Shown here: positions 1,563-41,667 of the stretch, piece by piece
Layout of the letters: every line of letters begins with the position of its first letter
Numbering within the stretch: position 1 is the first letter of the stretch
Source: Eurosta solidaginis
Taxonomy: Eukaryota; Arthropoda; Insecta; Diptera; Tephritidae
Reading direction: 5' to 3'
DNA length: 64,000 bases
NCBI RefSeq assembly: GCF_040869045.1
Contig: NC_090320.1
Span: forward strand, 150,062,941 to 150,126,940
Notes under the pieces: model-generated
What the model was told of the DNA's origin: nothing
What the model saw: the letters and a program-made list of their open reading frames with translations, nothing else
The model's database searches: none
Position numbers and translations under genes: made by a program

Positions 1563-1611
1563 CGTTGCCGATGAAGGAATTTAGCAGTTCCCGAAATGGA
1601 TCTATACAACG
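1563..1611 (+). ncRNA. Hammerhead-like ribozyme, family 1, inverted unit 2
   Basis: Plus-strand copy, 436 bp after the previous one, with stem I CGTTG (1563-1567) pairing CAACG (1607-1611). Same CCGATGA core. Confidence 0.6.
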
Positions 1612-3670: not shown

Positions 3671-4202
3671 TTTACTTTAACCTAAAAAAAAAAATATAAG
3701 GAAATAATAATCCATAAAAATAGGCTTAAACCTGTACTCAGACTTATAAACATACACACAAGAATCCAAAAAACCCAAGTCAGCATAACAATGAAAAATT
3801 AAAGCAAATGTAAAAATAAGGAACGCATAAAAGAAAAATAAAAACAACATGGCACACTTCTATGGCAATTGGATGACCGTATGTAGTTAGGCGCCAAACT
3901 ATATACGTTCCTCCCTTAAAAGCATATGGAAGTGTGCACATGAACGAAAGAAAACACAAAATGCATGTTAACAAAAAATATATAAATAACAACATGTTAC
4001 ATTGAAAAAAAGCACAAAATCACACATGTAAGGCAGATGCAAACGGATAATGACTAAGTAAACAAACTCTTCAATCGCAATAAATTACTAAAAAAAAAGG
4101 GGATTAAAATTATATGAATTCAAACAAACCTCAAGTGGTCTCTTCAAGAGTCATATATAATTTTTTTCAAATCATAGACGACTCTTTTTCTAAGGAGGAT
4201 GG
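3671..4202. other. 3' internal end of LTR element, with polypurine tract
   Basis: AT-rich noncoding stretch leading to a purine-rich AAGGAGGATGG directly before the 3' LTR, the expected place for a plus-strand primer. Nothing else recognised. Confidence 0.5.
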
Positions 4203-17719: not shown

Positions 17720-20271
17720 GAGCTGAGGGCAAAGAGATAAAAATGTTAGTGGACACAAGAGCTTAAAAAAGCTATATAAAGCCCCTTACTGAATTAAAAG
17801 GCATTGTGCCTTTAACGAGACCGTTCGTAGTTAAGTCAGTTCACGGCGAGAGCCAAGTAGGGCAAAAATGTAAAACTAACTTGTTTGGCATAACTTCGGA
17901 TTTTATAATATTATCAAACTTGATATACTTTGACGCGATAATTGGGCTTGACCTGCTAACGCAAGTCAACGCAGTCGTGGACCTTCAAAAAGGTGAAATA
18001 GTTCATGATTTTGGAATCGAAAAATTATTTTTTATAAAAATTGATAACATTAATGCTTTGAAAGTTGAACAGGAAAGCGTACCTCTTGCAATAAGGGGGG
18101 ATTTTTCAAATATGATTAAAAAAAAGGTCACAGGCTTTCGCCGATCCCAATGAATCTCTGCCCTATAACACAAATGTAGTTGCTAGGATTCGCACAAAAC
18201 ATGAAGAACCGATTTATTCTAAAATGTATCCTTATCCAATGGGGGTAGTTGACTTTGTTAACAATGAAATAAAAGAGCTTTTACGAAATGGCATTATAAG
18301 ACGATCTAAGTCTCCCTACAATAACCCCATTTGGGTCGTGGACAAGAAGGGCGTTGATGAGTTTGGCAATAAAAAAAGCGTTTGGTGCTAGATTTTCGCA
18401 AACTGAACGAAAATGCCATTGACGACAAATACCCAATACTAAATGTCATTTCGATTTTATCAAATATGGGACTTGCACAATACTTCACAACCCTTGATTT
18501 GAAGTCTGGATTCCACCAGATCGAGCTCGCTGAGCGAGACAGGGAAAAAACAGCCTTTTCCGTTAGCAACGGAAATTATGAATTTTGTAGGCTACCTTTC
18601 GGATTAAAAAACGCTTCGAGTATTTTTCAAAGAGCTATAGACGACATCTTAAGGGAAAAGATAGGAAAAAGCTGCTTTGTTTACGTGGATGACGTTATTA
18701 TTTATTCCGAATCTAAAGAACAACACATTAAAGACATAGACTGGGTCTTGAAGAGTCTATGTGACGCTAACATGAGGGTGTCAGTCGACAAATCCAAATT
18801 TTTTAAAACTGAAACAGAGTATCTCGGATTTATTGTATCAAGGGGTGGCATTAAGACGTGCCCAGATAAAGTTAGCACAATGCTGAACTTCCCAACCCCC
18901 GAAACCTTGTACGGTCTCAGATCCTTTCTAGGATTAGCAAGCTATTATAGATGCTTCGTGAAAGACTTTGCCAGTATTGCCAAACCATTGACTGATATTT
19001 TGAAGGGGGAAAATGGAAGAGTCAGCGCTTACAGATCCAAAAGAGTGAAAATATTTTTAAATTCAAAACAACACCAAGCATTTGAGACACTTGAAACACA
19101 TTTTAGTATCGGAAGACGTAATGCTCGCTTACCCCGATTTTAAAAAACCATTTGATTTAACTACAGATGCGTCCAACCATGGCCTGGGTGCTGTTCTTTC
19201 TCAGGAAGGCAGACCAATAACTATGGTTTCCAGAACCCTAAAAGACAATGAACTTCACTTTGCCACTAATGAAAGGGAGCTTTTGGCCATAGTCTGGGCA
19301 CTAAAAAACCTTCGTAACTATCTTTATGGCAGATACACTAAAACATATGTAACGGACTTTTTGACCCGAATGATCAGCTGGAAATAATAGCTACGGAGCA
19401 TAATCGTGCACACCGTGCAGCACAGGAAAATGTTAAGCAAATATTGAGGGACTACTTTTTCCCAAAGATGGAAAACAAAGCCAAAGAGGTTGTGGTAAAC
19501 TGTAGGATCTGCTCTAAATCGAAGTACAATAGGCAACATCGGAAACATAAAATAGCAGATACACCCATTCCACTATACTCAGGAGAGATCCTGCATATTG
19601 ACATTTTTGCTACCGACTCAAAGTATTTCTTAACTTGTGTAGACAAGTTCTCAAAATTCGCAATCGTTCAGACCATAGCGTCGAGAACAATTTTGGACAT
19701 AAAGCCCCAATTAATACAAATTTTGAACATTTTTCCAAAAGCAAAAACTGTTTATTGTGACAACGAAAAATCGTTGAATTCAAACACTGTCAGACAACTT
19801 CTTTCCAATAATTTTGGTATTAATATCGTCAATGCTCCACCTTTGTATAGCTGCTCCAATGGTCAGGTAGAGAGGTTTCACAGCACTTTAATTGAAATTG
19901 CTAGATGCCTGAAGTTGGAAAGATGTATTGATGACACGGTGGATCTAATCTTGCTATCAACCATTGAATATAACAAAACAATACATTCTGTTACTAAAAT
20001 GAGGCCAATATACATATTTAGATCCACCATTGATGAACCGAATAATGAAATATCTGAACGTATTAGATGTTCGCAACAAAAAGAGCTCACAAGTCACAAC
20101 AAAAACAGAACAGAGCGTGTTTTCAAGGAAGGAGATAAAGTTATGGTAAAAAGAAATACTAGACTAGGTAATAAGTTAGCACTACTTTATGAGGAACATA
20201 CAATTGAAAAAGACCTAGGGAGTACAGTTTTAATTAAAGGGAGGGTGGTCCATAAAGACAATTTGAAATAA
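17720..20271 (+). pseudogene. pol: Gypsy pol (protease, RT, RNase H, integrase), broken
   Basis: Protease: the active site reads DTR where DTG or DSG is expected (~17752-17760), followed two codons later by a TAA. RT follows frameshifts in A-runs near 18120 and 18371; it has the LDLKSGFHQI block and catalytic YVDD at 18682-18693. RNase H begins TTDASNHGLGAVL (~19160) but breaks off near 19360, with about half the domain deleted. Integrase follows: HHCC finger (H-x3-H, CRIC; 19400-19520), then a D, D, E core (LHIDIF; YCDNEKS; GQVERFHST) and a C-terminal tail to 20271. At least three frameshifts or deletions; enzyme activity is not possible. Confidence 0.85.
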
Positions 20272-20862
20272 ATACTAGTCTGGCCGCATTTCTTCTTTGA
20301 AACTCCAATAACAGAAACCTAGACTTATTACAAAAAATAAAATTTTGCTACATCGAATTTTATGGTGACTAGGTAACTGAGCATTTCACGAATATTCATT
20401 TGCACTATGTAAAAATTCTGTACTTTGAAATTTTTGTTAACTATAATGAAATGGAAATTTATGTTAAGTTATAACGATAGTTAGTAGTTTTAAGAAAAAC
20501 CGACTTGGCAACCACGTAATTGCAACTTACTCACAAATACCAGCATATTAGAGCTCTCATGGATTTATCATACCGCTGCTAAACTGCTATTAAATTTCTC
20601 AATGCTCGACTACTCATTATCGTCGTGCTCGCTATCTGAGTCATTAACTTGTAACTCACTTCTGTTACAATCTATGTATGGGTCTGCGGAACTAATGCCA
20701 AAAGTAAAGATGACTCAAAGATATAACTCAACCTATTCTATGTGCAACACTGTAATTGCTCAGAAGTTTATGCAATAATATCGTTGTGATAACCTACCAA
20801 ACCAATCATACAAATTAAATTAATTTTGGCATTATTGTTGAGGATCGCGGACGTCCCTCATT
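20272..20862 (+). other. Region where gypsy env would lie; no env seen
   Basis: About 590 bp without a long frame. A gypsy-group env gene needs roughly 1.4 kb, so it has been deleted or was never present. Nothing else recognised. Confidence 0.6.
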
Positions 20863-20874
20863 TAGAAGGGGAGG
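20863..20874 (+). promoter_or_regulatory. Polypurine tract of gypsy element
   Basis: AGAAGGGGAGG ends one base or less before the 3' LTR; it is the expected plus-strand primer site. Confidence 0.7.
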
Positions 20875-21491
20875 AGTTAAGCACTAATAACTGCTGGTCA
20901 CCCACGTAAAAGGTTCTGCTCTCTGATGCCCTCCATCTAGTGAATATGACGAGCATACAACCATACAGCATTACCAAAACCTGTTAGGCAAGTGAACACC
21001 GAACGCTGTGAGTTAACAGCGATAACGACATCATCTCATACTACTTTACATCCCAGTAGCTGTAAAGCAAGTGCGAACCAATTGCCGTGACAGCGATCAG
21101 TGGATAACAACAGCAAAGGCATTATTCGCATAAACCTAATTGTTGGAGAACAGTGATTGCATACGACTTAACATAACCAATAGTTCGAAAACAAGCGTGG
21201 GCGAACTAATGTGAGAGCGATCAGTGCATTTAACAGCAAACGACTCCAATAATAGTTTGATTGAATAATTGTGAGAGCAAACAGAGCAGCCGGCAGCGAA
21301 ATGTGACAGAGAGCGAGGTTCAGCTCTTTCCAATTAGAATTAACAGCAGTGCTGGTTGTTGCAAATAGACCAATGGGCAGATCACCCCGGTTGTAAAAAG
21401 GAAACAATATTTTAAGAGCTTTTTGTAAAAACGCTTTAATTTAATAAAGTTTATAATTCAAGTAATAATTGGGTTGAATAAACTTATAATT
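20875..21491 (+). repeat. 3' LTR of gypsy element
   Basis: 617 bp, AGTTAAGC...TAATT, followed by the TGCA target duplication. It lacks the MITE present in the 5' LTR and has one 14-bp deletion relative to it. Confidence 0.9.
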
Positions 21492-24400
21492 TGCACAGCC
21501 GAAATTGTCAATAAATTAACGTGTACCACTCTTGATGAATTACATGACAGCGATCATTTTCCTCTAATAACAAAAATGACCTCAATCTCTCCTATACCAG
21601 TCGACCTGCTCCAAAATTTATTACAGATAAGGCAAATTGGGAAAAATTTCAAGTGGGTATAATCGATTTCTTATCCAATATTCCAATCTCAAATAATATT
21701 AATAAAGATGCAAGAGGAATACAAAAGCTCTCCGCAATGCTGATCATTACTCTTTACCGCAAACTCATTACAAATTACATAAAAAATAGTCCCATATTGG
21801 TCAGAATTATCTATCTTCCATAAGAGATGAGCAATGTGGTTTTTGAAATGTTTATAAAAGGTGTCGCTCAGACACAAACCTTTTAAATTATAAGGCAAAC
21901 GCCATATTTAAAAAGAAGCTTAAGGAAGCCAAACGGAAAAGGTTCGAAACCCTCCCTGAGTCTTTGAACCCTCAGTCCAATCTTAAGGAATTTTTTTCTA
22001 AAATCAAAACACTAACCGGAACGTTTACCCAGGTTTCAATAAAGGTTATTCAAACGCCCCCAGGAGCAATTTCTTCTCCGGAATATATAACAAACTATTT
22101 GGCGTCCACTTGGTTTAACTATTCCAACGACTCTAATTTCAATAATGAATTTTAAGGATCAAAAAAATAAGATGGTGATCATTACACCTGCAATCCTTTG
22201 AGTATAATTACCCAAGACTTGCAAAGTCCCATTACTTTCTTCGAATTCGAAACCACATTTTCTACAATGTCCGGGAAAACACCAGGTAGAGACAGGATCT
22301 CATTTCCAATGCTGAAGAATACTCCATCATCCTCTAAAGATCGCATAAATAGTCTATACAACAGTATCTTTTACCAAGGCGTCATCCCACAAGCATGGAG
22401 ACATGCCATTGTGGTGCCTATTCAAAAACCAAATAAACCAAGCACTGACGTCTAGGGTTACAGATCAATCAGCCTTCTCTCTTGCTTAAGCAAGTTTATC
22501 GAAAAAATTATATCCAAAAGAATAATTTGGTTTGCACTGAAAGACGGCTTCCTAAGCCCACATCAAACAGCATTTAAAGAAGGGCAAGTTACCATTGATG
22601 CTTTGCTGCTGTTCGAAGATTATACATCGAATTCCATTTCAACAAAAAATCATGTTTTTACCCTCCGCCTCGATTTTGAAAAAGCATACGATCGGTTTGG
22701 CATACACGTAGTATTAAGACAATTGGCAAGATGGAAAATTGGACCAAAAATATACAGTTTTGTAAAAGCTTTCCTGACCAATAGGACCTTAGCTGTCAGA
22801 TACAACAATAAATACTCAAATTCAAAACGGCTTTATAATGGAATACCTTAGGGTTCCCCCTTTCGGTGGTGTTATTTATAGTGGCTTTCGACGAAATTAA
22901 CAGTATACTTTTAAATTTTAAAATAATATCGCACATAACCTACACGGACGATGTAGTACTGTTTATCAAATCTATGGATCTCAACCTGGTTAGACACGAT
23001 TTTATTCAAATTCTCACAGCAATTTCCAATTGTACAGAAGCTTCAGGGGCATCCTTCGCATATAATAAATGTAAGACTCTACACTTGTGTAACAAGCGTA
23101 ACTCCCCGCAGGTTAGGGGGTTAGAATATACCTGCGGTAGGTATGCCTGTCGTAAGAGGCGACTAAAATACCAGATTCAAGGGGTTGTGTAGCGCAACCT
23201 TTTCAGGTTGCCAGCGCAATATATAGCATCTCCAAACCCAATTGTCAACCTCACTTTCGAGTGGCGAATCCCGTTTCACTAACAGGCGAGTCTCTGGCGA
23301 CCCCAAGCTCCTCATGGATCTTGCGGGTGGGGAGGGAGGGATGGCCTGAAGGCTTAATGTGGCCATATAAATCGTTCCCGAGATGGTCGGGCTAGCACCT
23401 CAATGGAGCTGTGTTACCGGAGCGTACCGGATCTGTATCCGGCAAAGGACCATCACATCGATAACACTCCCCAAAGCCTTCGGGGAGCAACCTTATCGCT
23501 ACAACAACAAATATTGAAAACTTTGACAGCGTAAGGAATAGTTTTCGACAAAAGATTTACATTTAGAGATCACTGTAAATATCTTAAGAGAAGAGCTGAG
23601 CAAACGACTCAATATTATATAATATCTACCATCGAAACATTGTTTGATACATCCGTCTACACTCGTCAATATCACAAAAACCCTCATCATTTCGAAGATG
23701 GATTACGGTTTACCAATATACGGGCAATGTGCAAGGGCAAACATAAAAATTATACTTCCACCATACCATGTGGCAGTAAGAAGGAGCATCCAAGCCTTCC
23801 CTACATCACCAATTGTGTGTATGCTTTCGGAGGCAGGCTTACCTTCAATACAAGAGCGCAACGCTTTCGCAACAATGAAGTTAATACCAAAGATCATTCA
23901 AAGCAATAATCCCCTGATTCGAAAAGTAGCAAAAACGCAAACAATAAAGAAACGACCTTCACGACATCCGTCCACAATAGCGAGATGTATATCAGCATCA
24001 AAAGAACTGGGAATCCACTTAAACATAAAAAATGTGGGTGTCAAAAGCCCTCTACCCTGGCAATCTCTGGAAAGCTTCATCTGGTCGAACTTAGCAAAAT
24101 GTCGGAAAAACGTAACAAGTCCAGAGGTATACCAACAACATTTCAATAAGACCGCAACAAACTTACAAAAAAATGATGGGAAAATACTCTACACAGACGC
24201 ATCCAAAACCAAATCCCAAACAGCGTACGCAGTCTTTTCCCCTTTTGCTCGACATATACGGCAGAAGCAGTTGCAATTTTAGAGGCAGTGGATACATACA
24301 GAACTACAGGTAAATTTGTCATATGTACCGATAGCCTCGCCACAGTCAACTCGCTTACCAACGCGAAAGTAAAAAACAACTTACTCAACGAACTTCGGTG

Positions 24401-24910
24401 TAAATTGCTAGAGTGCAAAGGATCGACTAGAATCATGTGGATCCCCGGTCACGTAGCAATCAAAGGCAACGAAGCGGCGGACCAGAGAGCCAAACTTGCA
24501 ACAAATGAACCACTTTGTACAACCGAATGGATCCCTAAGGACGATATGATTCGCCTGGCATACACACACTCCAAGGAACTAAGCTCTCAACTGTCAGTAA
24601 ACCCGCAACATCATTACAGCAAGTTTGGCACAACCGATAGGAAACTTATTTGCACCCCAGATATCTCCTGGAGCAATCAAAAATGTTAACTCGCTTACGA
24701 ATCGGACACACTATCGTGACACATAGCCACATACTTAAAGGAGAAAACCTACCACCGTGCCCGCAATGCTGCCTGAACCAACTTTCCGAAATCCACCTGC
24801 TTGGCGAATGCCATCACTACACCGAAATCAGAACAAATATATTTGGAAGCAGTCATCGACTAACTCTCGCCGTGTATAGACGTGTATTAACTTGCGCTAA
24901 GTTAAAGTGA
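21492..24910 (+). pseudogene. I-clade LINE ORF2 remainder (RT, RNase H, C-terminal motif)
   Basis: Continues the LINE cut at 15065. The endonuclease tail ends near 21660. RT: GKTPGRDRISFPML (~22270), PQAWRHAIVVPIQKP (~22390), a GYRSISLL block after a TAG, LDFEKAYDR (~22670), and a catalytic YTDD at 22941-22952 in place of the common YADD. RNase H: LYTDASKTKSQTAYAVF (~24190), a frameshift, CTDSLATVNSL (~24325), WIPGHVAIKGNEAAD (~24430). A C-terminal CPQC...H...C cluster is at 24760-24815, and the stop is at 24910. A SINE sits at 23102-23510. At least five stops or frameshifts. Confidence 0.85.
23102..23510 (+). mobile_element. SINE-like element (CAA-tailed) in the I LINE
   Basis: About 410 bp ending in CTACAACAACAA, also present on the minus strand at 28505-28809, 42328-42741 and 60037-60336. 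Near the 5' end it has GCCTGTCGTAAGAGGCGAC enclosed by GGTAT/ATACC, a conserved hairpin-like motif. No protein is encoded. I see no clear target duplication here, but the Penelope copies have a 13-bp one, so LINE-type mobilisation is likely. Confidence 0.75.
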
Positions 24911-25302
24911 ATTTGTTTAGTTATCATACTACAACAGTCACGCGTTTTTCTTTTTTCCTTTTTAACCTTCCTATCGCAAAATCATTCGATTATCTGAACC
25001 AGGCATGCTTAACCAACGAACCGATATCATTTCGTTACGATAATTAACGTTAATAAACGAAACAAAGTCATTTCATTTCGTTTATTAACGTTAAGAACGT
25101 CAAATTAACGAAAAAATTTTGTTTCGTTTTCTGCCATATCAAAACGAAATCAAATCGTTTATGTTCATTTTTAATTTCAAACTATGCTGGAAAAGCTGAT
25201 TGATGGCGGAGTCATTAAAGGTGAAAGCATTAGCCAAACTGATAGCAACTTTTCTCATGAATTTTGACAGTACGAACATTTCTCAGAGTATTTTTGACAT
25301 TA
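24911..25302. other. LINE 3' flank and AACGTTAA-rich DNA
   Basis: After the LINE stop comes a pyrimidine-rich tract, then from about 25010 repeated TTAACGTTAA, CGTTTATTAACG and AACGAAA words. Similar words in opposite order recur at 25850-25935, suggesting the arms of a palindromic DNA element. No coding. Confidence 0.45.
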
Positions 25303-25724
25303 GGGGGACTCATGAAAGCATATAAACTTATAAGGTGTAAAATTATATCAATTTACACACGCGGTTATATGAACGCACCTAGTAATACTCTTGATAAACT
25401 TGATTGTTTATCAGCTGTATTATTGCCAAACAAAATTTTTTTGATTGTTATACAAATTAAAAAATGCCAAGATTAAGTGAAAAATCAAAACTAAAACGCC
25501 TTTACTTGCTGATGTTGGAAATTTCTGATGAAAATGCCTGCTGTAATGTCTGCAAGGTTGCATTCCTTTGAGTTTACCGCGTTTACACAATGAAATGTGC
25601 GCGTAAATTTATACAAATTGTGTAAATGATTTTTCATACAAAATTTGACAGCTCGTTTACGCACTAGATAAATTTATATGTTTACACACTTTATAAGGCA
25701 TTTATACGGTTACATGAGTCCCCC
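25303..25724. mobile_element. MITE with GGGGGACTCATG inverted termini
   Basis: 422 bp. The termini GGGGGACTCATG (25303-25314) and CATGAGTCCCCC (25713-25724) are perfect inverted repeats flanked by TA on both sides; similarity continues inward imperfectly for ~30 bp. TA duplication suggests a Tc1/mariner-type nonautonomous element. No transposase. Confidence 0.7.
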
Positions 25725-25949
25725 TATTACCACCAACGAATTACACAAACAAATTACATGGAGTTTGTGTGTATGTCCGCTCGCTGTTTCCACCTTACGG
25801 CTTCACCATGGCTATAGCATTGCCAGCACAATTCAAACATAGAGTATCATGTTTTTGTTAACGTTTTTAACGTTAACGAAAGCTTTTCGTTTCTGTTAAA
25901 AACGAGATACAATTTATCTTGTTAATTTCTTTATCGATAATATTTCGAA
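25725..25949. other. AACGTTAA-rich DNA and target site of the family 2 array
   Basis: Unique-looking sequence, then GTTAACG palindromes near 25860-25890, ending with GATAATATTTCGAA (25936-25949), which recurs at 27605-27618 beyond the array. Confidence 0.5.
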
Positions 25950-26132
25950 TTGTTTTTGTTTTTATCGGCCTATTGATAAATCATTCAAGGTTCGAATCGA
26001 GCTCAAGGCCAGAACAATAATTTTTTTTCTAATGATAATTATTGTTATTTTTTAATTTTACTAAATTTGAAAAATTGTATTTAGTTTTTTGGAATAGTAA
26101 GTAGAAAATTTTTCAGACAACCTGCCATAGCT

Positions 26133-26182
26133 GCGCAGATAGATCCATTTCGAAGGGTGCTAAGCCTTCATCATAAGTACGC
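26133..26182 (-). ncRNA. Hammerhead-like ribozyme, family 2, unit 1
   Basis: Same layout as 26556-26605, but the core reads CTTATGA (G5 replaced by T), so probably inactive. Stem I GCGTA/TGCGC is intact. Confidence 0.6.
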
Positions 26183-26555
26183 TTTAGGCATGCTGCATTT
26201 AGCTATACAGCGGTGGTTTGTTTGACTGGCAAATTTGCTACTTCTATTCCTTTTTACCAACTATATTTATTCAGTGTTGCGCCATCTGGTGCAAATCACT
26301 GATAATGCTGGATTTTTGTTTATTGTCAATTAATTTGTTTGACATTCCCAAGTGCTCATGGTTTATTAACAATTGTTTTTGTTTTTATCGGCCTATTGAT
26401 AAATCATTCAAGGTTCGAATCGAGCTCAAGGCCAGAACAATAATTTTTTTTCTAATGATAATTATTGTTATTTTTTAATTTTTCTAAATTAGAAAAATTG
26501 TATTTTGTTTTTTGGAATAGTAAGTAGAAAATTTTTCAGACAACCTGCCATAGCT

Positions 26556-26605
26556 GCGCAGATAGATCCATTTCGAAGGGTGCTAAGCCTTCATCATCAG
26601 TACGC
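26556..26605 (-). ncRNA. Hammerhead ribozyme, family 2, unit 2
   Basis: Complete type-I layout: stem I GCGTA pairing TGCGC (one G-U), core CTGATGA (fully consensus), one extra U, helix II GAAGG/CCTTC, GAAA, a two-pair stem III closing a GGATCT loop, cleavage triplet AUC. An outer TGCC/GGCA helix extends stem I across an internal loop. Confidence 0.75.
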
Positions 26606-26985
26606 TTTAGGCATGCTGCGCTAACCATTTAGCTATACAGCGGTGGTTTGTTTGACTGGCAAATTTGCTACTTCTATTCCTTTTTACCAACTATATTTAT
26701 TCAGTGTTGCGCCATCTGGTGCAAATCACTGATAATGCTGGATTTTTGTTTATTGTCAATTACTTTGTTTGATATTCCCAAGTGCTCATGGTTTATTAAC
26801 AATTGTTTTTGTTTTTATCGGCCTATTGATAAATCATTCAAGGTTCGAATCGAGCTCAAGGCCAGAACAATAATTTTTTTTCTAATGATAATTATTGTTA
26901 TTTTTTAATTTTTCTAAATTTGAAAAATTGTATTTTGTTTTTTGGAATAGTAAGTAGAAAATTTTTCAGACAACCTGCCATAGCT

Positions 26986-27035
26986 GCGCAGATAGATCCA
27001 TTTCGAAGGGTGCTAAGCCTTCATCATCAGTACGG
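26986..27035 (-). ncRNA. Hammerhead ribozyme, family 2, unit 3
   Basis: Same as unit 2 with consensus CTGATGA and GAAA. One outer stem I pair is lost (CCGTA in place of GCGTA). Confidence 0.7.
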
Positions 27036-27376
27036 TTTAGGCATGCTGCGCTAACCATTTAGCTATACAGCGGTGGTTTGTTTGACTGGCAAATTTGCTA
27101 CTTCTATTCCTTTTTACCAACTATATTTATTCAGTGTTGCGCCATCTGGTGCAAATCACTGATAATGCTGGATTTTTGTTTATCAATAGGCCGATAAAAA
27201 CAAAAACAATTGTTAATAAACCATGAGCACTTGGGAATGTCAAACAAAGTAATTGACAATAAACAAAAATCCAGCATTATCAGTGATTTGCACCAGATGG
27301 CGCAACACTGAATAAATATAGTTGGTAAAAAGGAATAGAAGTAGCAAATTTGCCAGTCAAACAAACCACCGCTGTA

Positions 27377-27395
27377 TAGCTAAATGGTTAGCGCA
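27377..27395 (+). promoter_or_regulatory. tRNA A-box-like element of family 2 unit
   Basis: TAGCTAAATGGTTAGCGCA closely matches the tRNA A box (TRGCNNAGYNGG). It lies 12 bp upstream of the ribozyme on the same strand, so a polymerase III transcript would include the ribozyme. A full tRNA cloverleaf is not formed. Confidence 0.55.
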
Positions 27396-27406
27396 GCATG
27401 CCTAAA

Positions 27407-27456
27407 GCGTACTGATGATGAAGGCTTAGCACCCTTCGAAATGGATCTATCTGCGC
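27407..27456 (+). ncRNA. Hammerhead ribozyme, family 2, inverted unit
   Basis: Stem I 27407-27411 with 27452-27456; core CTGATGA 27412-27418; helix II 27420-27424 with 27433-27437; GAAA 27438-27441; predicted cleavage between 27451 and 27452 after AUC. One extra U (27419) separates the core from helix II. All conserved core bases are present; this is the best plus-strand example. Confidence 0.75.
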
Positions 27457-27784
27457 AGCTATGGCAGGTTGTCTGAAAAATTTTCTACTTACTATTCCAA
27501 AAAACAAAATACAATTTTTCAAATTTAGAAAAATTAAAAAATAACAATAATTATCATTAGAAAAAAAAATTATTGTTCTGGCCTTGAGCTCGATTCGAAC
27601 CTTGGATAATATTTCGAAGTATTTCAACGGAAACGGTGGACATTTTTTGATAAACGATTAGCTTAACATTTTTTAAAAATTATTATTGGCTTTAAATTTA
27701 TTAAACTATTTTATGAGCTCGAGACCTTATCCAAATAAAAACGCAGTATAAATATTTTATATTTGTATTTTTATTTTATATTCG

Positions 27785-27817
27785 ATATTTCGACTTCAGT
27801 CTGAAGTCATCATCAGG
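27785..27817 (-). ncRNA. Hammerhead-like motif in the Penelope terminal repeat (copy A 3')
   Basis: CTGATGA, one extra U, a perfect 7-bp helix II (GACTTCA/TGAAGTC, GAC loop), GAAA, then TATC. Penelope pseudo-LTRs are known to carry minimal hammerheads. Stem III would be formed mainly by the self-complementary ATAT, perhaps in a dimer; stem I pairing is imperfect. Confidence 0.6.
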
Positions 27818-28094
27818 ACTGTGAAACAAAACAAACAGAAAAAACAAAAATTATAACAATTTCAAAAATCAACCATAAAACAAATATCACTTACACAATT
27901 GAGTATGTTATACAGACTAACAATATGTGGGAAAATTAAGATTGTTGGAGACAAATAACAATACAAAAATATAAACAATATTTCAAAGCACTGTTAATAT
28001 AAACAAAATTTTGCAAAAACCAAAGTACATGGAGTGGCTAAAAGTACGACATACAATTATACGTATATACATATATCATCTGATTTTCCTATTG

Positions 28095-30968
28095 TTATGG
28101 GAGAGATCTTCTTACAGCGCATTGTTGTTGCCTGAAAACTAAGTTCCGATACACATGTGCGCAGTGGTCAATGTCCGCTTTAAAATTCATCCTAGTACTA
28201 TTAGGGGTGTTCGCTATATGAAGCATTTCCAAAGTATATCTTTTATTATAATTTCTCTCCTCCTGTAAAATAGTTACATTATCGAAGTCTGGATAATGCC
28301 CCATATCTTTACAATGGGCTGACAAGGCCGTCATATTTTCTGAATAATTGTTTCTTAACTTAATATTAGATCTGTGAGCGGAAATCCTTGTCTTGAGTTT
28401 TAACTTTGTTGTCCCCACATATACCTTGTCGCATACGTGGGACCCGTCACCATTACACGGAATTCTATAAACAACTTCGGATTTCTCATGCTTTGGTATT
28501 TTATGTTGTTGTTGTTGTTGTAGCGACCATCTCGGGAACGATTTATGTGGCCACATTAAACCTTCAGGCCATCCCCTCCCTCCCGACCCCAAGTTCCATG
28601 AGGAGCTTGGGGTCGCCAAAGCCTCGTCTGTTAGTGGAACAGGATTCGCCGCGGATAGTTGAGGTTGACAATTGGGTTTGGAGAAGCTATATATTGCGCT
28701 GGCAACCTGATGGGTTGCGCTACACACCCCTTGAATCTGGTATTTTAGTCTCCTCTTACGACAGGCATACCTACAGCGGCTATATTCTGACCCCCTTATC
28801 CGCTGGGTCTTTGGTATTTTATCTTTTGTACTGCTGTAGACCTTTCTAAGAGTGTGATTATATGTCGATGCTATTTGGTACTTTTCCCGATTGTAAAGAT
28901 TTGAGTATTTTATTCGGTACGTTACGCCCGCCACATGTACTACTGATTTATATATTTTATCTCCCGTAGTTTATCTAATTTTATCATTGTTCAACCTAAT
29001 CACGGAATTTCTGAGCAATTTGTTGGTTATCTTTATGGGGAATTCATTATTTCTCAGAGTTTCTTTGACAATTTCGATATTCTTCTTGTGAAAAATCTTG
29101 TCACTTATTGAGAGAACTCTTCTTATGAAGCTACTCGCCGTATTAATAATAGTTCTACTTTAGTGTTTTGAGTTAAAGTTTATGAGTCTACCTGATGCGG
29201 TCGGCTTTTTGTACCAGTCAATAAGCAGCTTAATATTCTTCCTTATAACAAGTGTATCCAAGAATGGTATTTTTCCATCCTTTTCTAATTCTATTGTGAA
29301 TTTTATTGATTTGTTGCAGCTATTAAGATTTCTAAGCATATTTTCCACCTCCTCTGTTTTAACAACCGCAAACAAGTCATCCACGTACTTAGCTAGTAAG
29401 CGGGGTTTGTTGGTGGATTCCATTACGAATTTGGATAATAGTTCCTCCATTACTATATCCGCTACGACAGGTGCTGCTGGCGATCCCATGGGCATCCCTG
29501 AATGCTGCTCATATATTTTATCATTGTATTTGCAATATCGGTTCTCTTTAATGCAAAACTTGATAATTGTTATAAATAGTTCCTTTGGTATAAGTGTATG
29601 TTCTTTTATATCATTCCACTTAGAGGAAATTATCTCCAAGGCCAATTCTACTGGAATGCTCGGAAATAAAGAAACCACATCAAATGATACTAAAGTCTCA
29701 TCATCATGAATAAATGTATCTTTTATTTTATTCCTAAACTCAATTGAGTCTTTAACTTTATACTTGGAGGTGTTTGTTATATTCTTAAGTATGTTTATTA
29801 CATATTTCCATAAATTGTATGACGGCGAGTTTATGGACGAGCAAATCGGTCGGAGAGGTACCCCTTCTTTTTGGATTTTTGGCAAACCATATATTCGTGG
29901 AGGGTTTGCACTTTTGCAGACCAGATGATTCTTTTCCCTTAAATCAATTATATTCAGATTGAACATTTTTTGGACTAACTCGTTATTCTTTTCTTGGAAT
30001 TTGCTAGTAGGATCACGCTTCAAAACTCTATAGGTTGAAATATTATTAACTATTGTTTGCATTTTTCTGTGGTATTCAGATTTATCCATCGCTACTGTTA
30101 CATTACCCTTATCGGCAGTAAGTATTAAAATATCTTTATTTCTTTTAAGAAACTTTCTTGTGGAATGTAGGGTATTTTGTATAAATTTATCTCGCGCTGA
30201 AAAGGTATTCTTATTAAGATGATCGTGTATGAGCTTTGTAAAATTGCTTCTTCCTATTTCCGTTTTATCTTCTAAAGTATGTATAATATTCTCCCCGTCT
30301 GCAATACGTTGGAAAAGTGGAAACTCCTTATTTTGGATTGGAAGAGCATACTTAGGGCCTAAGGATAAAAGCCACTGAATGTCATTTGGTATTTCTAAAG
30401 ATGTTTTATTTTGAAACCATTCAGGGATCACCCTAATATTTAACTTTTCTCTTTGTTTCCTTACCAGTTCTTCGTACTTTTTAATTTTTGTATTTTTAAT
30501 ACATTCCGCGAGTTTGTTTACTAACATATCCTCACTTCGAAAAAATTTAGTAGAATGATTCAACTCCAGAGACTGAGTAATTTGGGTTCTTAATATATTT
30601 ACCTCTCTTTCCGTTTCTCTGATGAGTTCATGCTTAATATTTATAAGTAAATTTATAAGTTTTCTTTGCACTTTTTCTACAAATGCGGACACTACGTTGC
30701 AGAATATCATGGGTATTTTGTTGTTACTTGTATTATTGGTGATAAGGTAAATTATGTTCTTGGTTATGTTGCAGATAAAGTTCGAAGTTAAGCCGCTTCG
30801 TCTGCATCTCTCCAAAAATGTTGTTGATGTTGTTAGTCTTGTAACTTGCTTTGTAGTATGTTGGTAGCGCTTTATGTATTTGTTGGTTGTGACGTTATAG
30901 ATTTCGTTGATGTTTTTGTACACTTTGAATGTATTGTTTTTCTGATGGTGTGCTCTCCGTTTGAACAT
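28095..30968 (-). pseudogene. Penelope RT with GIY-YIG endonuclease, copy A
   Basis: The longest frame is 602 codons (30968 to 29160): a basic N-terminus, then RT motifs YGLPKI, PLRPICSSINSP, SFDVVSLFPSIP, GMPMGSPAAPVVAD and catalytic YVDD, and FLDTLV. A TAA at 29160-29162 interrupts it, where other copies read a Glu codon. A second nonsense change (CAA to TAA) is near 28974. The C-terminal part (28934-28095) holds the GIY-YIG-type endonuclease (KVYVGTTKLKLKTRISAHRSNI, then AHCKDMGHYPDF) and is split by a SINE that leaves the frame open. Ancestral length would be about 840 residues. The most complete N-terminal half in the window. Confidence 0.85.
28505..28809 (-). mobile_element. SINE-like element in Penelope copy A
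   Basis: Flanked by TTTGGTATTTTAT (28492-28504 and 28810-28822). Its 3' (CAA)n tail appears as GTTGTTG on the plus strand. About 110 bp is deleted internally next to the tail compared with the copy at 42328. The insertion keeps the Penelope frame open. Confidence 0.8.
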
Positions 30969-31079
30969 TTTTTAAAAACTATTATTGGCCTTTAATCTTT
31001 AAAATTTATTAAACGATTTCATGAGCTCGAGGCCTTATCCAAATAAAAACGCAGTATAAATATTTTATATTTGTATTCG

Positions 31080-31112
31080 ATATTTCGACTTCAGTCTGAA
31101 GTCATCATCAGG
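31080..31112 (-). ncRNA. Hammerhead-like motif, Penelope A/B junction
   Basis: Same 33-nt core and perfect helix II as at 27785. The downstream AT-rich tract is 18 bp shorter than in other copies, which removes part of the candidate stem I. Confidence 0.55.
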
Positions 31113-33128
31113 ACTGTGAAACAAAACAAAAACAAAAATTATAACATTTTCAAAAATCAACCATAAACCAAATATCACTTACACAATTGAGTATGTTATA
31201 CAGACTAACAATATGTACGAAAACTAAGATTGTTGGAGACAAATAATCATACAAAAATATAAACAATATTTCAAAGCACCGTAAATGTAAACAAAATTTT
31301 GCAAAAACAAAAGTACATGGAGTGGCTAAAAGTACGACATACATATATACATATATCATCTGATTTTCCTAATGTTGTGGGAGAGATCTTCCTACCGCGC
31401 ATTGTTGTTGCCTTAAAGTGGTCAGTGTCCGCTTTAAAATTCATCCTAGTACTATTAGGGGTGTTCGCTATATGAAACATTTCCAAAGTAAATCTTTTAT
31501 TATAATTTCTCTCCTCCTGTAAAATAGTTACATTATCGAAGTCTGGATAATGCCCCGTATCTTTACAGTGGGCTGACAAGGCCGTCTTATTTTCTGAATA
31601 ATTGTTTCTTAACTTAATATTAGATCTGTGAGCGGAAATCCTTGTCTTGAGTTTTAATTTTGTTGTTCCCACATATACCTTGTCGCATACGTGGGACCCG
31701 TCACCATTACACGGAATTCTATAAACAACGTCGGATTTCTCATGCTTTGGTATTTTATCTTTTGTACTGCTGTAGACCTTTCTAAGAGTGTGATTATATG
31801 TCGATGCTATTTGGTACTTTTCCCGATTGTAAAGATTTGAGTATTTTATTCGGTTCGTTACGCCCGGCACATGTACTACTGATTTATATATTTTATTTCC
31901 AGAATTTTGTCTAATTTTATCATTGTTCAACCTGATCACGGAATTTCTGGGCAATTTGTTGGTTATCTTTATGGGGAATTCATTATTTCTCAGAGTTTCT
32001 TTGACAATTTCGATATTCTTCTTGTGAAAAATCTTGTCACTTATTGAGAGAACTCTTCTTATGAAGTTACTCGCCGTATTAATTACAGTTCTATTTTCGT
32101 GTTTTGAGTTAAAGTTTATGTGTCTACCTGATGCGGTCGGCTTTTTGTACCAGTCAATAAGTACCTTGTTATTCTTCCTTATAACAAGTGTATCCAAGAA
32201 TGGTATTTTTCCATCCTTTTCTAATTCTATTGTGAATTTTATTGATTTGTTGCAGCTATTAAGATTTTTAAGCATATTTTCCACCTCCTCTGTTTTAACA
32301 ACCGCAAACAAGTCATCCACGTACTTAGTTAGTAAGCGGGGTTTGTTGGTGGATTTCATTACGAATTTGGATAATAGTTCCTCCATTACTAAATCCGCTA
32401 CGACAGGTGCTGCTGGCGATCCCATGGGTATCCCTGAACGCTGTTCATATATTTTATCATTGTATTTGCAATATCGGTTCTCTTTAATGCAAAACTTGAT
32501 AATTGTTATAAATAGTTCCTTTGGTATAAGTGTATGTTCTTTTATATCATTCCACTTAGAGGAAATTATCTCCAAGGCCAATTCTACTGGAATGCTCGGA
32601 AATAAAGAAACCACATCAAATGACACTAAAGTCTCATCATCATGAATAAATGTATCTTTTATTTTATTCCTAAACTCAATTGAGTCTTTAACGTTATACA
32701 TGGAGGTGTTTGTTATATTCTTAAGTATGTTTACTACATATTTGCATAAATTGTATGACGGCGAGTTTATGGACGAGCAAATTGGTCGGAGAGGTACCCC
32801 TTCTTTATGGATTTTTGGCAAACCATATATTCGTGGAGGGTTTGCACTTTTGCAGACCAGATGATTCTTTTCCCTTAAATCAATTATATTCAGATTGAAC
32901 ATTTTTTGGACTAACTCGTTATTCTTTTCTTGGAGTTTGCTAGTAGGATCACGCTTCAAAACTCTATAGGTTGAAATATCATTAACTATTTGTATGATAT
33001 AATAATCGGGGATTGCCCGTATTGCTTTTTTTTAAATGTATGAAAATATTTATTTGAAGCAATTTTTTAATTTTATAATTTATTTAATAATTTGGGAAAA
33101 ATTTAAACAACATGACATCAGGACGGTC

Positions 33129-33176
33129 AAGGCGACAGCTGTTTCGATTATACCTTGTAAATCCCTTCAAAGCCTT
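33129..33176 (-). ncRNA. Degenerate hammerhead-like fold, family 3 unit 1
   Basis: Stem I AAGGC/GCCTT; GAAAC...GTC half-core with AGCT loop; helix II weakly paired. The CUGANGA part reads TTTGAAGG, so activity is doubtful. Confidence 0.45.
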
Positions 33177-33581
33177 TTCTCCCGGGAGTGGGAGTCGAAC
33201 CCGCACTCCTACGATAGTTGAAATGGTTATAAACGCATTCAGCTACGTCATGCCTTAGTTGTTGTAAAGTTTTTCCCAATTGCCTTCTTTTTGCATATTT
33301 TAATCTTTTACACATTGCATACTTCGTATGCAATTATGTGTTAAAGCTATGCTTGGTACGGCGGTTTTCAAAGAAACTTTGGTTTTTGTTGCTGTTTTTG
33401 TTCTATTTGTAGAACTACAACGAATTAACCAATTTTGTCTGTTTGTATGATTTAATAATCGGGGATTGCCCGTATTGCCTTTTTTTAAATGTATGAAAAC
33501 ATTTATTTGAAGCAATTTTTTAATTTTGTAATTTATTCAATAATTTGGGAAAAATTTAAACAACGTGACATCAGGGCGGAC

Positions 33582-33629
33582 AAGGCGACAGCTGTTTCGA
33601 TTATACCTTGTAAATCTCTTCAAAGCCTT
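33582..33629 (-). ncRNA. Degenerate hammerhead-like fold, family 3 unit 2
   Basis: Stem I AAGGC/GCCTT, helix II GATT/AATC, GAAA, two-pair stem III, cleavage triplet GUC. Core reads TTTGAAGA in place of CTGAAGA. Confidence 0.5.
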
Positions 33630-34034
33630 TTCTCCCGGAATAGGGAGTCGAACCCGCACTCCTACGATAGTTGAAATGGTTATAAACGCATTCAGCTACG
33701 TCATGCCTTAGTTGTTGTAAAGTTTTTCCCAATTGCCTTCTTTTTGCATATTTTAATCTTTTACACATTGCATACTTCGTATGCAATTATGTGTTAAAAA
33801 TATGCTTGGTACGGCGGTTTTCAAAGAAACTTTGGTTTTTGTTGCTGTTTTTATTCTATTTATAGAACTACAACGAATTAACCAATTTTGTCTGTTTGTA
33901 TGATTTAATAATCGGGGATTGCCCGTATTGATTTTTTTTAAATGTATGAAAACATTTATTTGAAGCAATTTTCTAATTTTATAATTTATTTAATAATTTG
34001 GGAAAAATTTAAACAACGTGACATCAGGACGGAC

Positions 34035-34082
34035 AAGGCGACAGCTGTTTCGATTATACCTTGTAAATCTCTTCAAAGCCTT
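34035..34082 (-). ncRNA. Degenerate hammerhead-like fold, family 3 unit 3
   Basis: Same as unit 2, 453 bp on. Confidence 0.5.
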
Positions 34083-34282
34083 TTCTCCCGGGAGTAGGAG
34101 TCGAACCCGCACTCCTACGATAGTTGAAATGGTTATAAACGCATTCAGCTAAGTCATGCCTTAGTTGTTGTAAAGTTTTTCCCAATTGCCTTCTTTTTGC
34201 ATATTTTCGTATGCAATTATAAGATCAAAATATGCAAAAAGAGGGCAATTGGGAAAAACTTTACAACAACTAAGGCATGACG

Positions 34283-34337
34283 TAGCTGAATGCGTTTATA
34301 ACCATTTCAACTATCGTAGGAGTGCGGGTTCGACTCC
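34283..34337 (+). promoter_or_regulatory. tRNA-like polymerase III promoter (A and B box), family 3
   Basis: A box TAGCTGAATGCG (34283-34294) and a perfect B box GGTTCGACTCC (34327-34337), 32 bp apart, on the same strand and upstream of the ribozyme-like fold. Equivalent sites occur in the other units, reversed (B boxes at 33191-33201, 33644-33654, 34097-34107, 39800-39810). The acceptor arms do not pair, so it is not a tRNA gene. Confidence 0.65.
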
Positions 34338-34351
34338 CACTCCCGGGGGAA

Positions 34352-34399
34352 AAGGCTTTGAAAAGATTTACAAGGTATAATCGAAACAGCTGTCGCCTT
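34352..34399 (+). ncRNA. Degenerate hammerhead-like fold, family 3 inverted unit
   Basis: Stem I AAGGC (34352-34356) with GCCTT (34395-34399); GAAAC, AGCT loop, GTC. The core again has the extra T and reads TTTGAAAA. Confidence 0.45.
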
Positions 34400-35380
34400 G
34401 TCCGTCCTGATGTCACGTTGGTTAAATTTTTCCCAAATTATTAAATAAATTATTACCTATTGTTTGCATTTTTCTGTGGTATTCAGGTTTATCCATCGCT
34501 ACTGTTACATTACCCTTATCGGCAGTAAGTATTAAAATATCTTTATTTCTTTCAAGAAACTTTCTTGTGGAATGTAGGGTATTTTGTATAAATTTATCTC
34601 GCGCTGACAAGGTATTCTTATTAAGATGATCGTGTATGAGCTTTGTAAAATTGCTTCTTCCTATTTCCTGTTCCTCTTTATCTTCTAAAGTATGTATAAT
34701 ATTCTCCCCGTCTGCAATAAGTTGGAAAAGTGGAAACTCCTTATTTTGGATTGGAAGAGCATACTTAGGGCGTAAGGATAAAAGCCACTGAATGCCATTT
34801 GGTATTTCTAAAGATGTTTTATTTTGAAACCATTCAGGGATCACCCTAATATTTAACTTTTCTCTTTGTTTCCTTACCAGTTCTTCGTACATTTTAATTT
34901 GTGTATTTTTGATACATTCCGCGATTTTGTTTACTAACATATCCTCACTTCGAAAAAATTTAGTAGAATGATTCAACTCCAGAGACTGAGTAATTTGGGT
35001 TCTTATATATTTACCTCTCTTTCCTTTTCTCTGATGAGTTCATGCTTAATATTTATAAGTAAATTTATAAGTTTTCTTTGCACTTTTTCTACAAATGCGG
35101 ACACTACGTTGCAGAATCTCATGGGTGTTTTGTTGTTACTTGTATTATTGGTGATAAGGTAAATTATGTTCTTGGTTATGTTGCAGATAAAGTTCGAAGT
35201 TAAGCCGCTTCGTCTGCATCTCTACAAAAATTTTGTTGATGTTGTTAGTCTTGTAACTTGCTTTGTAGTATGTTGGTAGCGCTTTATGTATTTGTTGGTT
35301 GTGACGTTTTAGATTTCTTTGATGTTTTTGTACACTTTGAATGTATTGTTTTTCTGACGGTGTGCTCTCCGTTTGAACAT

Positions 35381-35616
35381 TTTTTAAAAACTATTATTGG
35401 CCTTTAATCTTTAAAATTTATTAAACTATTTCATGAGCTCGAGGCCTTATCCAAATAAAAACGCAGTATAAATATTTTATATTTTTATTTTTATTTTATA
35501 TTCGATATTTCGACTTCAGTCTGAAGTCATCATCAGGACTGTGAAACAAAACAAAAACAAAAACAAAAATTATAACATTTTCAAAAATCAACCATAAAAC
35601 AAATATCACTTACACA
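35381..35616 (-). repeat. Penelope terminal repeat between copies B and C (left part)
   Basis: Upstream region of copy B and 3' flank of copy C, with a hammerhead-like motif at 35505-35537 (minus strand; perfect helix II, GAAA). It is cut at 35616 by foreign DNA and resumes at about 37777. Confidence 0.7.
35505..35537 (-). ncRNA. Hammerhead-like motif, Penelope B/C junction
   Basis: CTGATGA, U, GACTTCA/TGAAGTC helix, GAAATATC. Downstream AAAATAAAA can pair with upstream TTTTGTTT as an outer part of stem I. Confidence 0.6.
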
Positions 35617-39598: not shown

Positions 39599-40633
39599 TG
39601 TATGATTTAATAATCGGGGATTGCCCGTATTGCTTTTTTTTTTAATGTATGAAAACATTTATTTGAAGCAATTTTTTAATTTTATAATTTATTTAATAAT
39701 TTGGGAAAAATTTAAACAACATGACATCAGGACGGACAAGGCGACAGCTGTTTCGATTATACCTTGTAAATCTCTTCAAAGCCTTTTCTCCCGGGAGTGG
39801 GAGTCGAACCCGCACTCCTACGATAGTTGAAATGGTTATAAACGCATTCAGCTACGTCATGCCTTAGTTGTTGTAAAGTTTTTCCCAATTGCCTTCTTTT
39901 TGCATATTTTAATCTTTTACACATTGCATACTTCGTATGCAATTATGTGTTAAAGCTATGCTTGGTACGGCGGTTTTCAAAGAAACTTTGGTTTTTGTTG
40001 CTGTTTTTGTGCTATTTATAGAAGTACAACGAATTAACCAATTTTGTCTGTTTGTATGATTTAATAATCGGGGATTGCCGGTATTGCTTTTTTTTAAATG
40101 TATGAAAACATTTATTTGAAGCAATTTTTTAATTTTATAATTTATTTAATAATTTGGGAAAAATATAACAACATGATGTCAGGACGGACAAGGCAACATC
40201 TGTTTCGATTATACCTTGTAAATCTCTTCAAAGCCTTTTCTCCCGGGAGTGGGAGTCGAACGCGCACTCCTACGATAGTTGAAATGGTTATAAACGCATT
40301 CAGCTACGTCATGCCTTAGTTGTTGTAAAGTTTTTCCCAATTGCCTTCTTTTTGCATATTTTAATCGTTTACACATTGCATACTTCGTATGCAATTATAA
40401 GATTAAAATATGCAAAAAGAAGGAAAGGAAGGGGAAAAACTTTACAACAACTAAGGCATGACGTAGCTGAATGCGTTTATAACCATTTCAACTATCGTAG
40501 GAGTGCGAGTTCGACTCCCACTCCCGGGAGAAAAGGCTTTGAAGAGATTTACAAGGTATAATCGAAACAGCTGTCGCCTTGTCCGTCCTGATGTCACGTT
40601 GTTTAAATTTTTCCCAAATTATTAAATAAATTA
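39599..40633. repeat. Unit family 3 array inside Penelope copy C
   Basis: Two direct units and one inverted partial unit, flanked by TTAAATATT (39590-39598) and TTACCTATT (40634-40642), the same site as in copies B and E. Ribozyme-like folds start at 39738 (minus), about 40190 (minus; cleavage triplet mutated) and about 40526 (plus). One unit fewer than in copy B. Confidence 0.8.
39738..39785 (-). ncRNA. Degenerate hammerhead-like fold, family 3 (copy C)
   Basis: Stem I AAGGC/GCCTT, helix II GATT/AATC, GAAAC and GTC present; core TTTGAAGA. Confidence 0.45.
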
Positions 40634-41634
40634 TTACCTATTGTTTGCATTTTTCTGTGGTATTCAGATTTATCCATCGCTACTGTTACATTACCCTTAT
40701 CGGCAGTAAGTATTAAAATATCTTTATTTCTTTTAAGAAACTTTCTTGTGGAATGTAGGGTATTTTGTATAAATTTATCTCGCGCTGACAAGGTATTCTT
40801 ATTAAGATGATCGTGTATGAGCTTTGTAAAATTGCTTCTTCCTATTTCCTGTTCCTCTTTATCTTCTAAAGTATGTATAATATTCTCCCCGTCTGCAATA
40901 AGTTGGAAAAGTGGAAACTCCTTATTTTGGATTGGAAGAGCATACTTAGGGCCTAACGATAAAAGCCACTGAGTGTCATTTGGTATTTCTAAAGATGTTT
41001 TATTTTGAAACCATTCCTTACCAGTTCTTCGTACTTTCTAATTTGTGTATTTTTGATACATTCCGCGAGTTTGTTTACTAACATATCCTCACTTCGAAAA
41101 AATTGAGTAGAATGATTCAACTCGAGACTGAGTAATTTGGGTTCTTAATATATTTACCTCTCTTTCCTTTTCTCTGATGAGTTCATGCTTAATATTTATA
41201 AGTAAATTTATAAGTTTTCTTTGCACTTTTTCTACAAATGCGGACACTACGTTGCAGAATCTCATGGGTATTTTGTTGTTACTTGTATTATTGGTGATAA
41301 GGTAAATTATGTTCTTGGTTATGTTGCAGATAAAGTTCGAAGTTAAGCCGCTTCGTCTGCATCTGTCCAAAAATGTTGTTGATGTTGTTAGTCTTGTAAC
41401 TTGCTTTGTAGTATGTTGGTAGCGCTTTATGTATTTGTTGGTTGTGACGTTATAGATTTCTTTGATGTTTTTGTACACTTTGAATGTATTGTTTTTCTGA
41501 TGGTGTGCTCTCCGTTTGAACATTTTTTAAAAACTATTATTGGCCTTTAATCATTAAAATTTATTAAACGATTTCATGAGCTCGAGGCCTTATCCAAATA
41601 AAAACGCAGTATAAATATTTTATATTTGTATTCG

Positions 41635-41667
41635 ATATTTCGAATTCAGTCTGAAGTCATCATCAGG
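41635..41667 (-). ncRNA. Hammerhead-like motif, Penelope C/D junction
   Basis: Core CTGATGA and GAAA are intact, but one helix II pair is broken (TGAATTC in place of TGAAGTC). Confidence 0.45.

Follow-up and report, generated by a model that had tools for sequence, protein, structure and literature searches.

The window analysed here, a stretch of 64,000 nucleotides from the tephritid fly Eurosta solidaginis (contig NC_090320.1), contains arrays of two repeat families, a and b, with unit lengths of 430 and 437 bp, within-array matches of 98-99% and G+C contents of 0.33 and 0.36, which are low, as in retrozymes. The original prediction had described a tandem repeat of about 430 bp, and TRF did recover a 430-bp period across 25948-27183, but the family a array at 25950-27604 proved to be a head-to-head pair within a 14-bp target-site duplication and not a single tandem; the duplicated 14-mer, GATAATATTTCGAA, occurs in the window only at 25936 and 27605. 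No ORF of at least 110 aa overlaps 25950-27604, and the array, having no reverse transcriptase (RT) or GIY-YIG ORF of its own, was therefore classed as a passenger and not as a Penelope-like element. The arms of the two arrays and the flanks of the first are as follows.

25936-25949, no strand: left target-site duplication GATAATATTTCGAA, a 14-mer
25950-27183, minus strand: family a arm of about 2.9 units, with a long-type 3' end about 19 nt past the hairpin described below
27179-27604, plus strand: family a arm of one unit, with a short-type 3' end within the hairpin loop
27605-27618, no strand: right target-site duplication GATAATATTTCGAA, a 14-mer
1-1008, minus strand: family b arm, cut by the window edge
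1007-1788, plus strand: family b arm, with a long-type 3' end

Within the family a repeat we confirmed hammerhead motifs at 27407-27456 (plus) and 26556-26605 (minus). Both read as the near-canonical hammerheads that had been proposed, the extra U included, and two further minus-strand copies carry changes.

27407-27456, plus strand: intact type I hammerhead, predicted to cleave 3' of C27451
27407-27411 and 27452-27456, plus strand: stem I of this copy, GCGTA and TGCGC, read from the sequence
27412-27418 and 27438-27441, plus strand: core of this copy, CTGATGA and GAAA
27419, plus strand: extra T of this copy, between core and helix II
27420-27424 and 27433-27437, plus strand: helix II of this copy, GAAGG and CCTTC
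26556-26605, minus strand: intact type I hammerhead, predicted to cleave 3' of 26561 on the minus strand
26986-27035, minus strand: damaged hammerhead with one lost stem I pair (G to C)
about 26133-26182, minus strand: hammerhead with core CTTATGA, predicted inactive, with 7 nt deleted at the A box

A strict descriptor (CTGANGA, helix II of at least 4 bp, GAAA, UH and stem I of at least 5 bp) matched exactly two sites in the 64 kb, the intact pair, and none in 200 order-1 Markov shuffles. A loose pattern gave 20 matches against 1.03 expected; these include overlapping readings and other repeat families, and were not used as evidence for the fold. A covariance-model match, the check put forward with the original prediction, did not emerge: no Rfam hammerhead family matched in the whole window at the gathering score, where family b was scanned at that score only, or at E ≤ 10 in 20000-34000, 27370-27490 and 3480-3610. 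Rfam hits to MIR2646 and mir-649 were rejected as artefacts that sit on the palindrome formed by the two arms, and the remaining hits at E ≤ 10 in these three stretches score below gathering.

The sister family b, found at 1-1788, has diverged from family a (about 75% identity over about 270 nt) and keeps the same fold. In stem I and helix II together, nine of ten inner pairs form in both families, and eight of the ten are changed on both sides with pairing kept, a count that compares one sequence per family on a hand-set, structure-based alignment; helix II was counted on this alignment because MAFFT shifts the helix II of family b by one column. The tenth pair, at the base of helix II, is G-C in family a and A-C in family b. 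Identity between the families falls to 2/20 in the inner paired columns and stands at 34/39 in the unpaired ones (permutation p 0.00045). Across five distinct rows, stem I had 97.5% of its cells paired and a covariation score of 0.625, both above all 500 shuffles, while slid controls reached at most 45% paired and a score of at most 0.150; two of the five stem I measures, both-side changes (138/500) and further pair types (337/500), were no better than shuffles. Minimum free energy folding of the isolated hammerhead gave no three-helix form for family b or for family d, a foldback-like repeat listed below. The compensatory changes between families a and b support the proposed hammerhead fold and imply past selection on it, and we judged that this covariation, itself read from sequence, outweighs the silence of Rfam.

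Both families thus compared carry a type I hammerhead with conserved core and helices, as retrozymes do, and each has an oddity in its core: in family a an unpaired U directly after the core, at helix II, and in family b the substitution U4C, with C at position 4 in all 26 b-type matches from the window and the 40 genomic loci described below. A strict-type descriptor run over the same material returned 45 hits, 25 of family b (CCGATGA) and 20 of family a, and the extra U of family a and the U4C and A-C mismatch of family b are features of the families. Loop II (UUAGCA) and an internal loop (UAAA/AGCUWU) are conserved between the families, as would suit possible loop-loop contacts. The stem III sequence, which is AUGGAUCUAU in families a and b and AUGGGUCCAU in family d, is complementary to itself and can pair between two molecules. 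Folding of the circular monomers predicts more structure than in 60 Markov shuffles of each (z -2.55 and -2.84).

The A-box-like element that had been placed 12 bp upstream of the hammerhead was borne out as an exact match to the A-box consensus and is kept in many copies.

27377-27387, plus strand: A-box match TAGCTAAATGG, ending 12 nt before the outer GCC of stem I
26625-26635 and 27055-27065, minus strand: A-box matches

Exact matches occur in families a and b; eight of the nine in the window lie within units (2.41 expected, for copies that are not independent), and the 40 loci and the window together hold 52 A-box-like matches. A B-box-like stretch, GGTTCGAATC, lies near the 3' hairpin on the strand opposite to the A box in both families, and runs of T4-T6 stand 100-140 nt downstream of the A box on the ribozyme strand, inside the unit. 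In a tRNA-derived SINE the A and B boxes share one sense and a terminator follows the unit; here the B-like box is antisense and the T-runs are internal. Transcription by Pol III from the A box is doubtful because these runs would probably stop the polymerase inside the unit, and a model of Pol III multimers was set aside on account of them.

Families a and b share with the Penelope elements of the window a stretch 3' of the ribozyme, on the ribozyme strand: the frame GGCCTYGAGCTC-N25-33-AGGCCRATA, which encloses a GGCCU/AGGCC hairpin. It has 11 hits in the window (four in family b, three in family a and four in Penelope) against 0.00 expected, for a pattern that was written after the shared stretch had been seen and with copies within one family that are not independent. 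Two more Penelope pLTR copies carry changed versions of the hairpin.

26816-26863, 26386-26433 and 25963-26010, minus strand: 3' hairpin of family a, GGCCTTGAGCTC...AGGCCGATA
1285-1333 and 1721-1769, plus strand: 3' hairpin of family b
221-269 and 658-706, minus strand: 3' hairpin of family b
30983-31034, minus strand; also 35395-35446, 41538-41589 and 62411-62462: hairpin frame in Penelope pLTRs
27665-27898, minus strand: 3' end of the nearest Penelope copy, a pLTR with a hammerhead-like motif at 27777-27816
29160-30971, minus strand: Penelope RT ORF, 603 aa from stop to stop, RVT_1 at E 5.7e-9
31271-33031, minus strand: second Penelope copy, with RT and a C-terminal region containing KVYVGTTK

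The ORF at 29160-30971 shares 73% identity with a Eurosta solidaginis protein and that at 31271-33031 is 72% identical to protein P0001 over 538 aa. A Pfam search of the Penelope ORFs matched the RT and gave no endonuclease match; the C-terminal region of the second ORF is a putative GIY-YIG endonuclease, a reading that draws on its motif and on its alignment to P0001. Five of six Penelope pLTR copies run on into the start of an ORF and one, at 27665-27898, stops; its homology breaks off 23 nt beyond the stem of its hairpin, one of the changed versions, where long retrozyme ends lie at 16-32 nt, a comparison that uses this one copy in the window.

The Penelope pLTRs also contain the motif CTGATGATGACTTCAGACTGAAGTCGAAATATCGAATA, with variants in some copies, an extra U as in the retrozymes and, by eye, no stem I beside the core.

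27777-27816, 31068-31111, 35497-35536, 41623-41666 and 62513-62552, minus strand: pLTR motif CTGATGATGACTTCAGACTGAAGTCGAAATATCGAATA
52023-52065, plus strand: pLTR motif CTGATGATGACTTCAGACTGAAGTCGAAATATCGAATA

Searches of viral contigs found no relatives of the Penelope protein, and neither an exact copy of the hammerhead nor the 22-nt stretch of the hairpin, GGTTCGAATCGAGCTCAAGGCC, occurs in IMG/VR; two pattern hits there (L001 and L002) were rejected as chance, having neither stem I pairing nor tandem repeats. The 22-nt stretch has one match in an Eremiobacterota MAG (L003:1108-1129), a locus in which ARAGORN found no tRNA.

Further repeats and ORFs share the window.

32989-34446, 39600-40633 and 61217-61465: family e, 453-bp units
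3200-3680 and 53690-54120: family d, foldback-like, carrying CTGATGATGATTACG...GAAATGGGTCCATC

Besides a B box in sense orientation, GGTTCGACTC, family e has a near match to the A box, TAGCTGAATGC, and a hammerhead-like stretch, TTGAAGA...GAAACAGCTGTC, read as C3U; its inverted pair sits inside a Penelope ORF and shows an imperfect duplication of about 13 bp when set against an intact Penelope copy. Family d has a 5-bp stem I (AUUGC/GCAAU) in two of three copies, an extra U and a weak helix II. The regions at about 1.9-10 kb and 52.4-60 kb are near-identical at an offset of about 50.47 kb, hold the same ORFs and are probably a segmental duplication. Retroelement-like ORFs lie at 6.5-10 kb, 16.3-20.3 kb, 22.4-24.7 kb and 49.4-51.3 kb; RVT_1 matched a single ORF in the first of these regions and another in the third, and the others were recognized by eye.

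Across the fly's own 1.908-Gb genome, the 3' half motif CGAAATGGATCTATHNNNNNAGC returned 13,584 matches (6978 forward and 6606 reverse), and the same pattern read backwards returned none. A 141-nt DNA search of this genome gave no match, by a method that skips very common words. Among the 100 matches listed, same-family neighbours on opposite strands within about 1.2 kb were minus-then-plus in 15 of 15 cases, by eye, and the one plus-then-minus neighbour joins two families. We mapped arms with BLAST, using both units, in 40 loci and added the window; the loci are those listed matches that lie no further than 17.42 Mb along contig C1, minus 6481685, 12263994 and 13531756, and form a non-random sample. 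Thirty further loci (L004-L033), which mostly overlap the 40, were excluded from the end counts, as was the family b minus arm of the window, which is truncated at the window edge. Among 36 neighbours on opposite strands, 34 lie head-to-head and two point inward, the latter (L052 and L067) involving fragments of 48 and 32 bp. Priming of cDNA at each 3' end of a staggered cut would produce the head-to-head orientation. At G000:C1:773292-775777, one pair of family b and one of family a are nearly adjacent, back to back, perhaps as a hot spot or as one insertion inside another.

The 3' ends of the arms fall mainly at two sites about 35 nt apart, a long one 16-32 nt past the hairpin stem and a short one in the hairpin loop: among 79 visible ends, 34 are long, 32 short and 13 elsewhere. 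The two end windows were set after the ends had been seen, and the pairing of ends therefore weighs more than their clustering. Thirty-three head-to-head pairs have both ends visible; 25 of them are classable and every one combines a long with a short end (0 long+long, 0 short+short), and the other eight comprise four long+other, three short+other and one other+other. Target duplications of 12-16 bp (mode 13) flank 20 of the 33 pairs, and the remaining 13 have no duplication of 9 bp or more; as a control, 1052 mismatched flank pairs yielded only three duplications of at least 12 bp and 27 of at least 9 bp. Retrozymes typically have duplications that exceed 4 bp, and the inverted head-to-head arm and the 30-40-nt tail on one arm are marks of Penelope-type insertion.

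Arm lengths in the 25 classable pairs range from 22 to 1614 bp, with means of 383 bp for long and 416 bp for short arms. Nine of 25 long and nine of 25 short arms exceed one unit (18/50), which indicates a template of more than one unit or a circle and supports the original proposal of a multimeric transcript, in so far as it called for a template longer than a unit. Junctions between the arms (n=33) overlap by 1-16 bp in 16 pairs, abut in one and are separated by 1-314 bp in 16; they fall at many unit positions, and the 5' positions of the two arms differ by at least 19 in 32 of 33 pairs, the exception (L039), with nearly equal positions, having the 314-bp gap.

The placement of the repeats matches the insertion scars of Penelope, so Penelope likely copies and pastes them. 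We therefore consider it probable, with good though incomplete confidence, that the arrays consist of non-autonomous retrozymes with a predicted self-cutting RNA, likely inserted by a Penelope-like RT/endonuclease that primes on both cut strands; priming on two strands appears the most likely way of insertion. A multimeric transcript would be cut by the predicted hammerhead, whose self-complementary stem III AUGGAUCUAU probably lets it act as a dimer, and the resulting units of about 430 nt would then be closed into circles. The Penelope enzyme would bind the GGCCU/AGGCC hairpin and make a staggered cut of about 13 bp, and each cut strand would prime cDNA synthesis on the circle or multimer, with one start within the hairpin loop and a second about 35 nt further 3', after which the two cDNAs would join head-to-head. 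The ribozyme may serve RNA processing and not insertion, because hammerhead mutants of the anole element still insert. Against this explanation stand family e, which also forms an inverted pair with ends about 80-90 nt apart and without the GGCC hairpin, the 13 of 79 arm ends that lie outside both sites and the 13 of 33 pairs lacking a duplication of at least 9 bp. The core oddities, the outcomes with Rfam and minimum free energy folding, the two stem I measures that equal shuffles and the missing Pfam endonuclease match likewise count against it. To a more general version we give an even chance: retrozymes and Penelope may share one integration machine that follows a two-site, two-strand rule on circular ribozyme RNA, one strand always priming within a hairpin loop and the other about 35 nt past it, every insertion being head-to-head with one tail.

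Other origins account for parts of this pattern. The tandem units of 430 and 437 bp and the 98-99% matches in the window arrays are what a classical satellite spread by unequal crossing over would show, its hammerhead being vestigial; unequal exchange, however, predicts neither dispersed short arrays nor target duplications, head-to-head arms and two end sites, and we regard a satellite as extremely improbable. Inverted arms and a duplication also recall a foldback or MITE-like DNA transposon, with the arms as terminal inverted repeats beside a 13-bp duplication, and family d in the window does look foldback; yet the arms vary from 22 to 1614 bp across the 25 classable pairs, some hold several units, the junctions occupy many unit positions and there is always one short and one long end, so that a DNA transposon seems very improbable to us. 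A tRNA-related SINE moved by a LINE, with the hammerhead as passenger, could explain the exact A-box matches in both families and the B-box-like GGTTCGAATC near the 3' hairpin, but this stretch is antisense to the A box in both, the usual LINE insertion (one orientation, 5' truncation) gives no two outward 3' ends, and both ends lie at a hairpin shared with Penelope; we hold this to be improbable.

Insertion by Penelope is common to the two remaining alternatives. In one, the inverted arm arises from self-priming or template switching of a single cDNA, which is how the available text of a study of rotifer Penelope elements reads head-to-head palindromes, with an antisense template (PMC3846280). 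Simple fold-back predicts equal junction start positions, whereas these differ by at least 19 in 32 of 33 pairs; moreover, both outer ends are preferred sites joined to the target duplication, and the anole protein extends both strands (PMC11167929). We consider this origin of the inverted arm unlikely. The other supposes a hammerhead that is no longer catalytic, so that uncut multimers serve as template, and is compatible with the insertion part of our preferred explanation. The U insertion in family a and the U4C change in family b would suit it, as would the anole enzyme, whose insertion was left unblocked by hammerhead mutants (PMC11167929); the compensatory changes between the families, which imply past selection on the fold, speak against it, and loss of catalysis is in our estimate a minority possibility of some weight. 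Two-strand insertion by Penelope of retrozymes that are predicted to cut themselves is the reading that we favour.

Schistosome Sm-alpha and Sj-alpha satellites are SINE-like repeats with a hammerhead. Judged by their sequences, families a and b are animal-type retrozymes, a known kind of element, of which the fly families and their core variants are new. The original prediction knew of no such description for a family like this one, but the kind is known: animal non-LTR retrozymes of 150-450 bp, insects among their hosts, have been described by Cervera and de la Pena in 2020 (PMC7229834, in its available part). According to the same portion of that paper, these share with the fly families the type I hammerhead, short repeats in tandem, a low G+C, copy numbers that reach the thousands in some hosts, and Penelope elements that co-exist in the host (PMC7229834). 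The fly families differ from the retrozymes there described in their head-to-head two-arm insertions, one-long/one-short rule and Penelope-shared hairpin, and in their unpaired U and U4C cores. The observation made in the original prediction is thus confirmed and its interpretation upheld in part; it did not contain the inverted-pair architecture, the target duplication, the hairpin shared with Penelope or the sister family.

In the accessible sections of two papers, Penelope is named as a strong or likely candidate for the mover of retrozymes, from shared traits and co-occurrence (PMC7229834; PMC7761336). We found no retrozyme insertion scars of the present kind in the literature searched, whose coverage leaves out most subscription papers. 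Rotifer Penelope insertions have an inverted pLTR, a 31-bp tail on one arm and a 9-bp duplication, with the inversion explained by self-priming in the part of the source available (PMC3846280). The purified Penelope (Poseidon) protein of the anole cuts and extends both strands; its RT starts inside the RNA, in a stem-loop, and the 30-40-nt tail is the stretch between two start sites, which in vitro are the same on both strands, and hammerhead mutants still insert (PMC11167929). The fly retrozymes thus resemble Penelope and Poseidon in their inverted arm, tail of about 31-40 nt and short target duplication (PMC3846280, available part; PMC11167929), and the anole element in having a hammerhead and a proposed RT start inside the RNA near a stem-loop (PMC11167929). 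Unlike these elements, they lack a long ORF and have units of about 430 bp, a 5-bp stem I and conserved loops, and in every classable insertion one arm uses one start site and the other arm the second. In axolotl, ribozymes whose stem III is weak show better cleavage as dimers, and retrozymes of newt and axolotl resemble those of the fly in their very short stem III, which has a palindromic loop in the Amex1 type, as far as the available text reports (PMC7229834); the fly families, for which dimer action is predicted, differ from what that text describes in a longer self-complementary segment, AUGGAUCUAU, in other core variants and in their host.

The insertion scars and the shared hairpin tie retrozymes to Penelope by a link that can be tested with one purified protein and one RNA, and the one-long/one-short arm rule constrains how Penelope enzymes use two start sites. 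If the ribozyme is functional, this dipteran, with its thousands of motif copies, may be a natural source of ribozyme-made RNA circles. Should a single integration machine indeed serve both kinds of element, it would have spread self-cutting RNA to thousands of sites in this fly.
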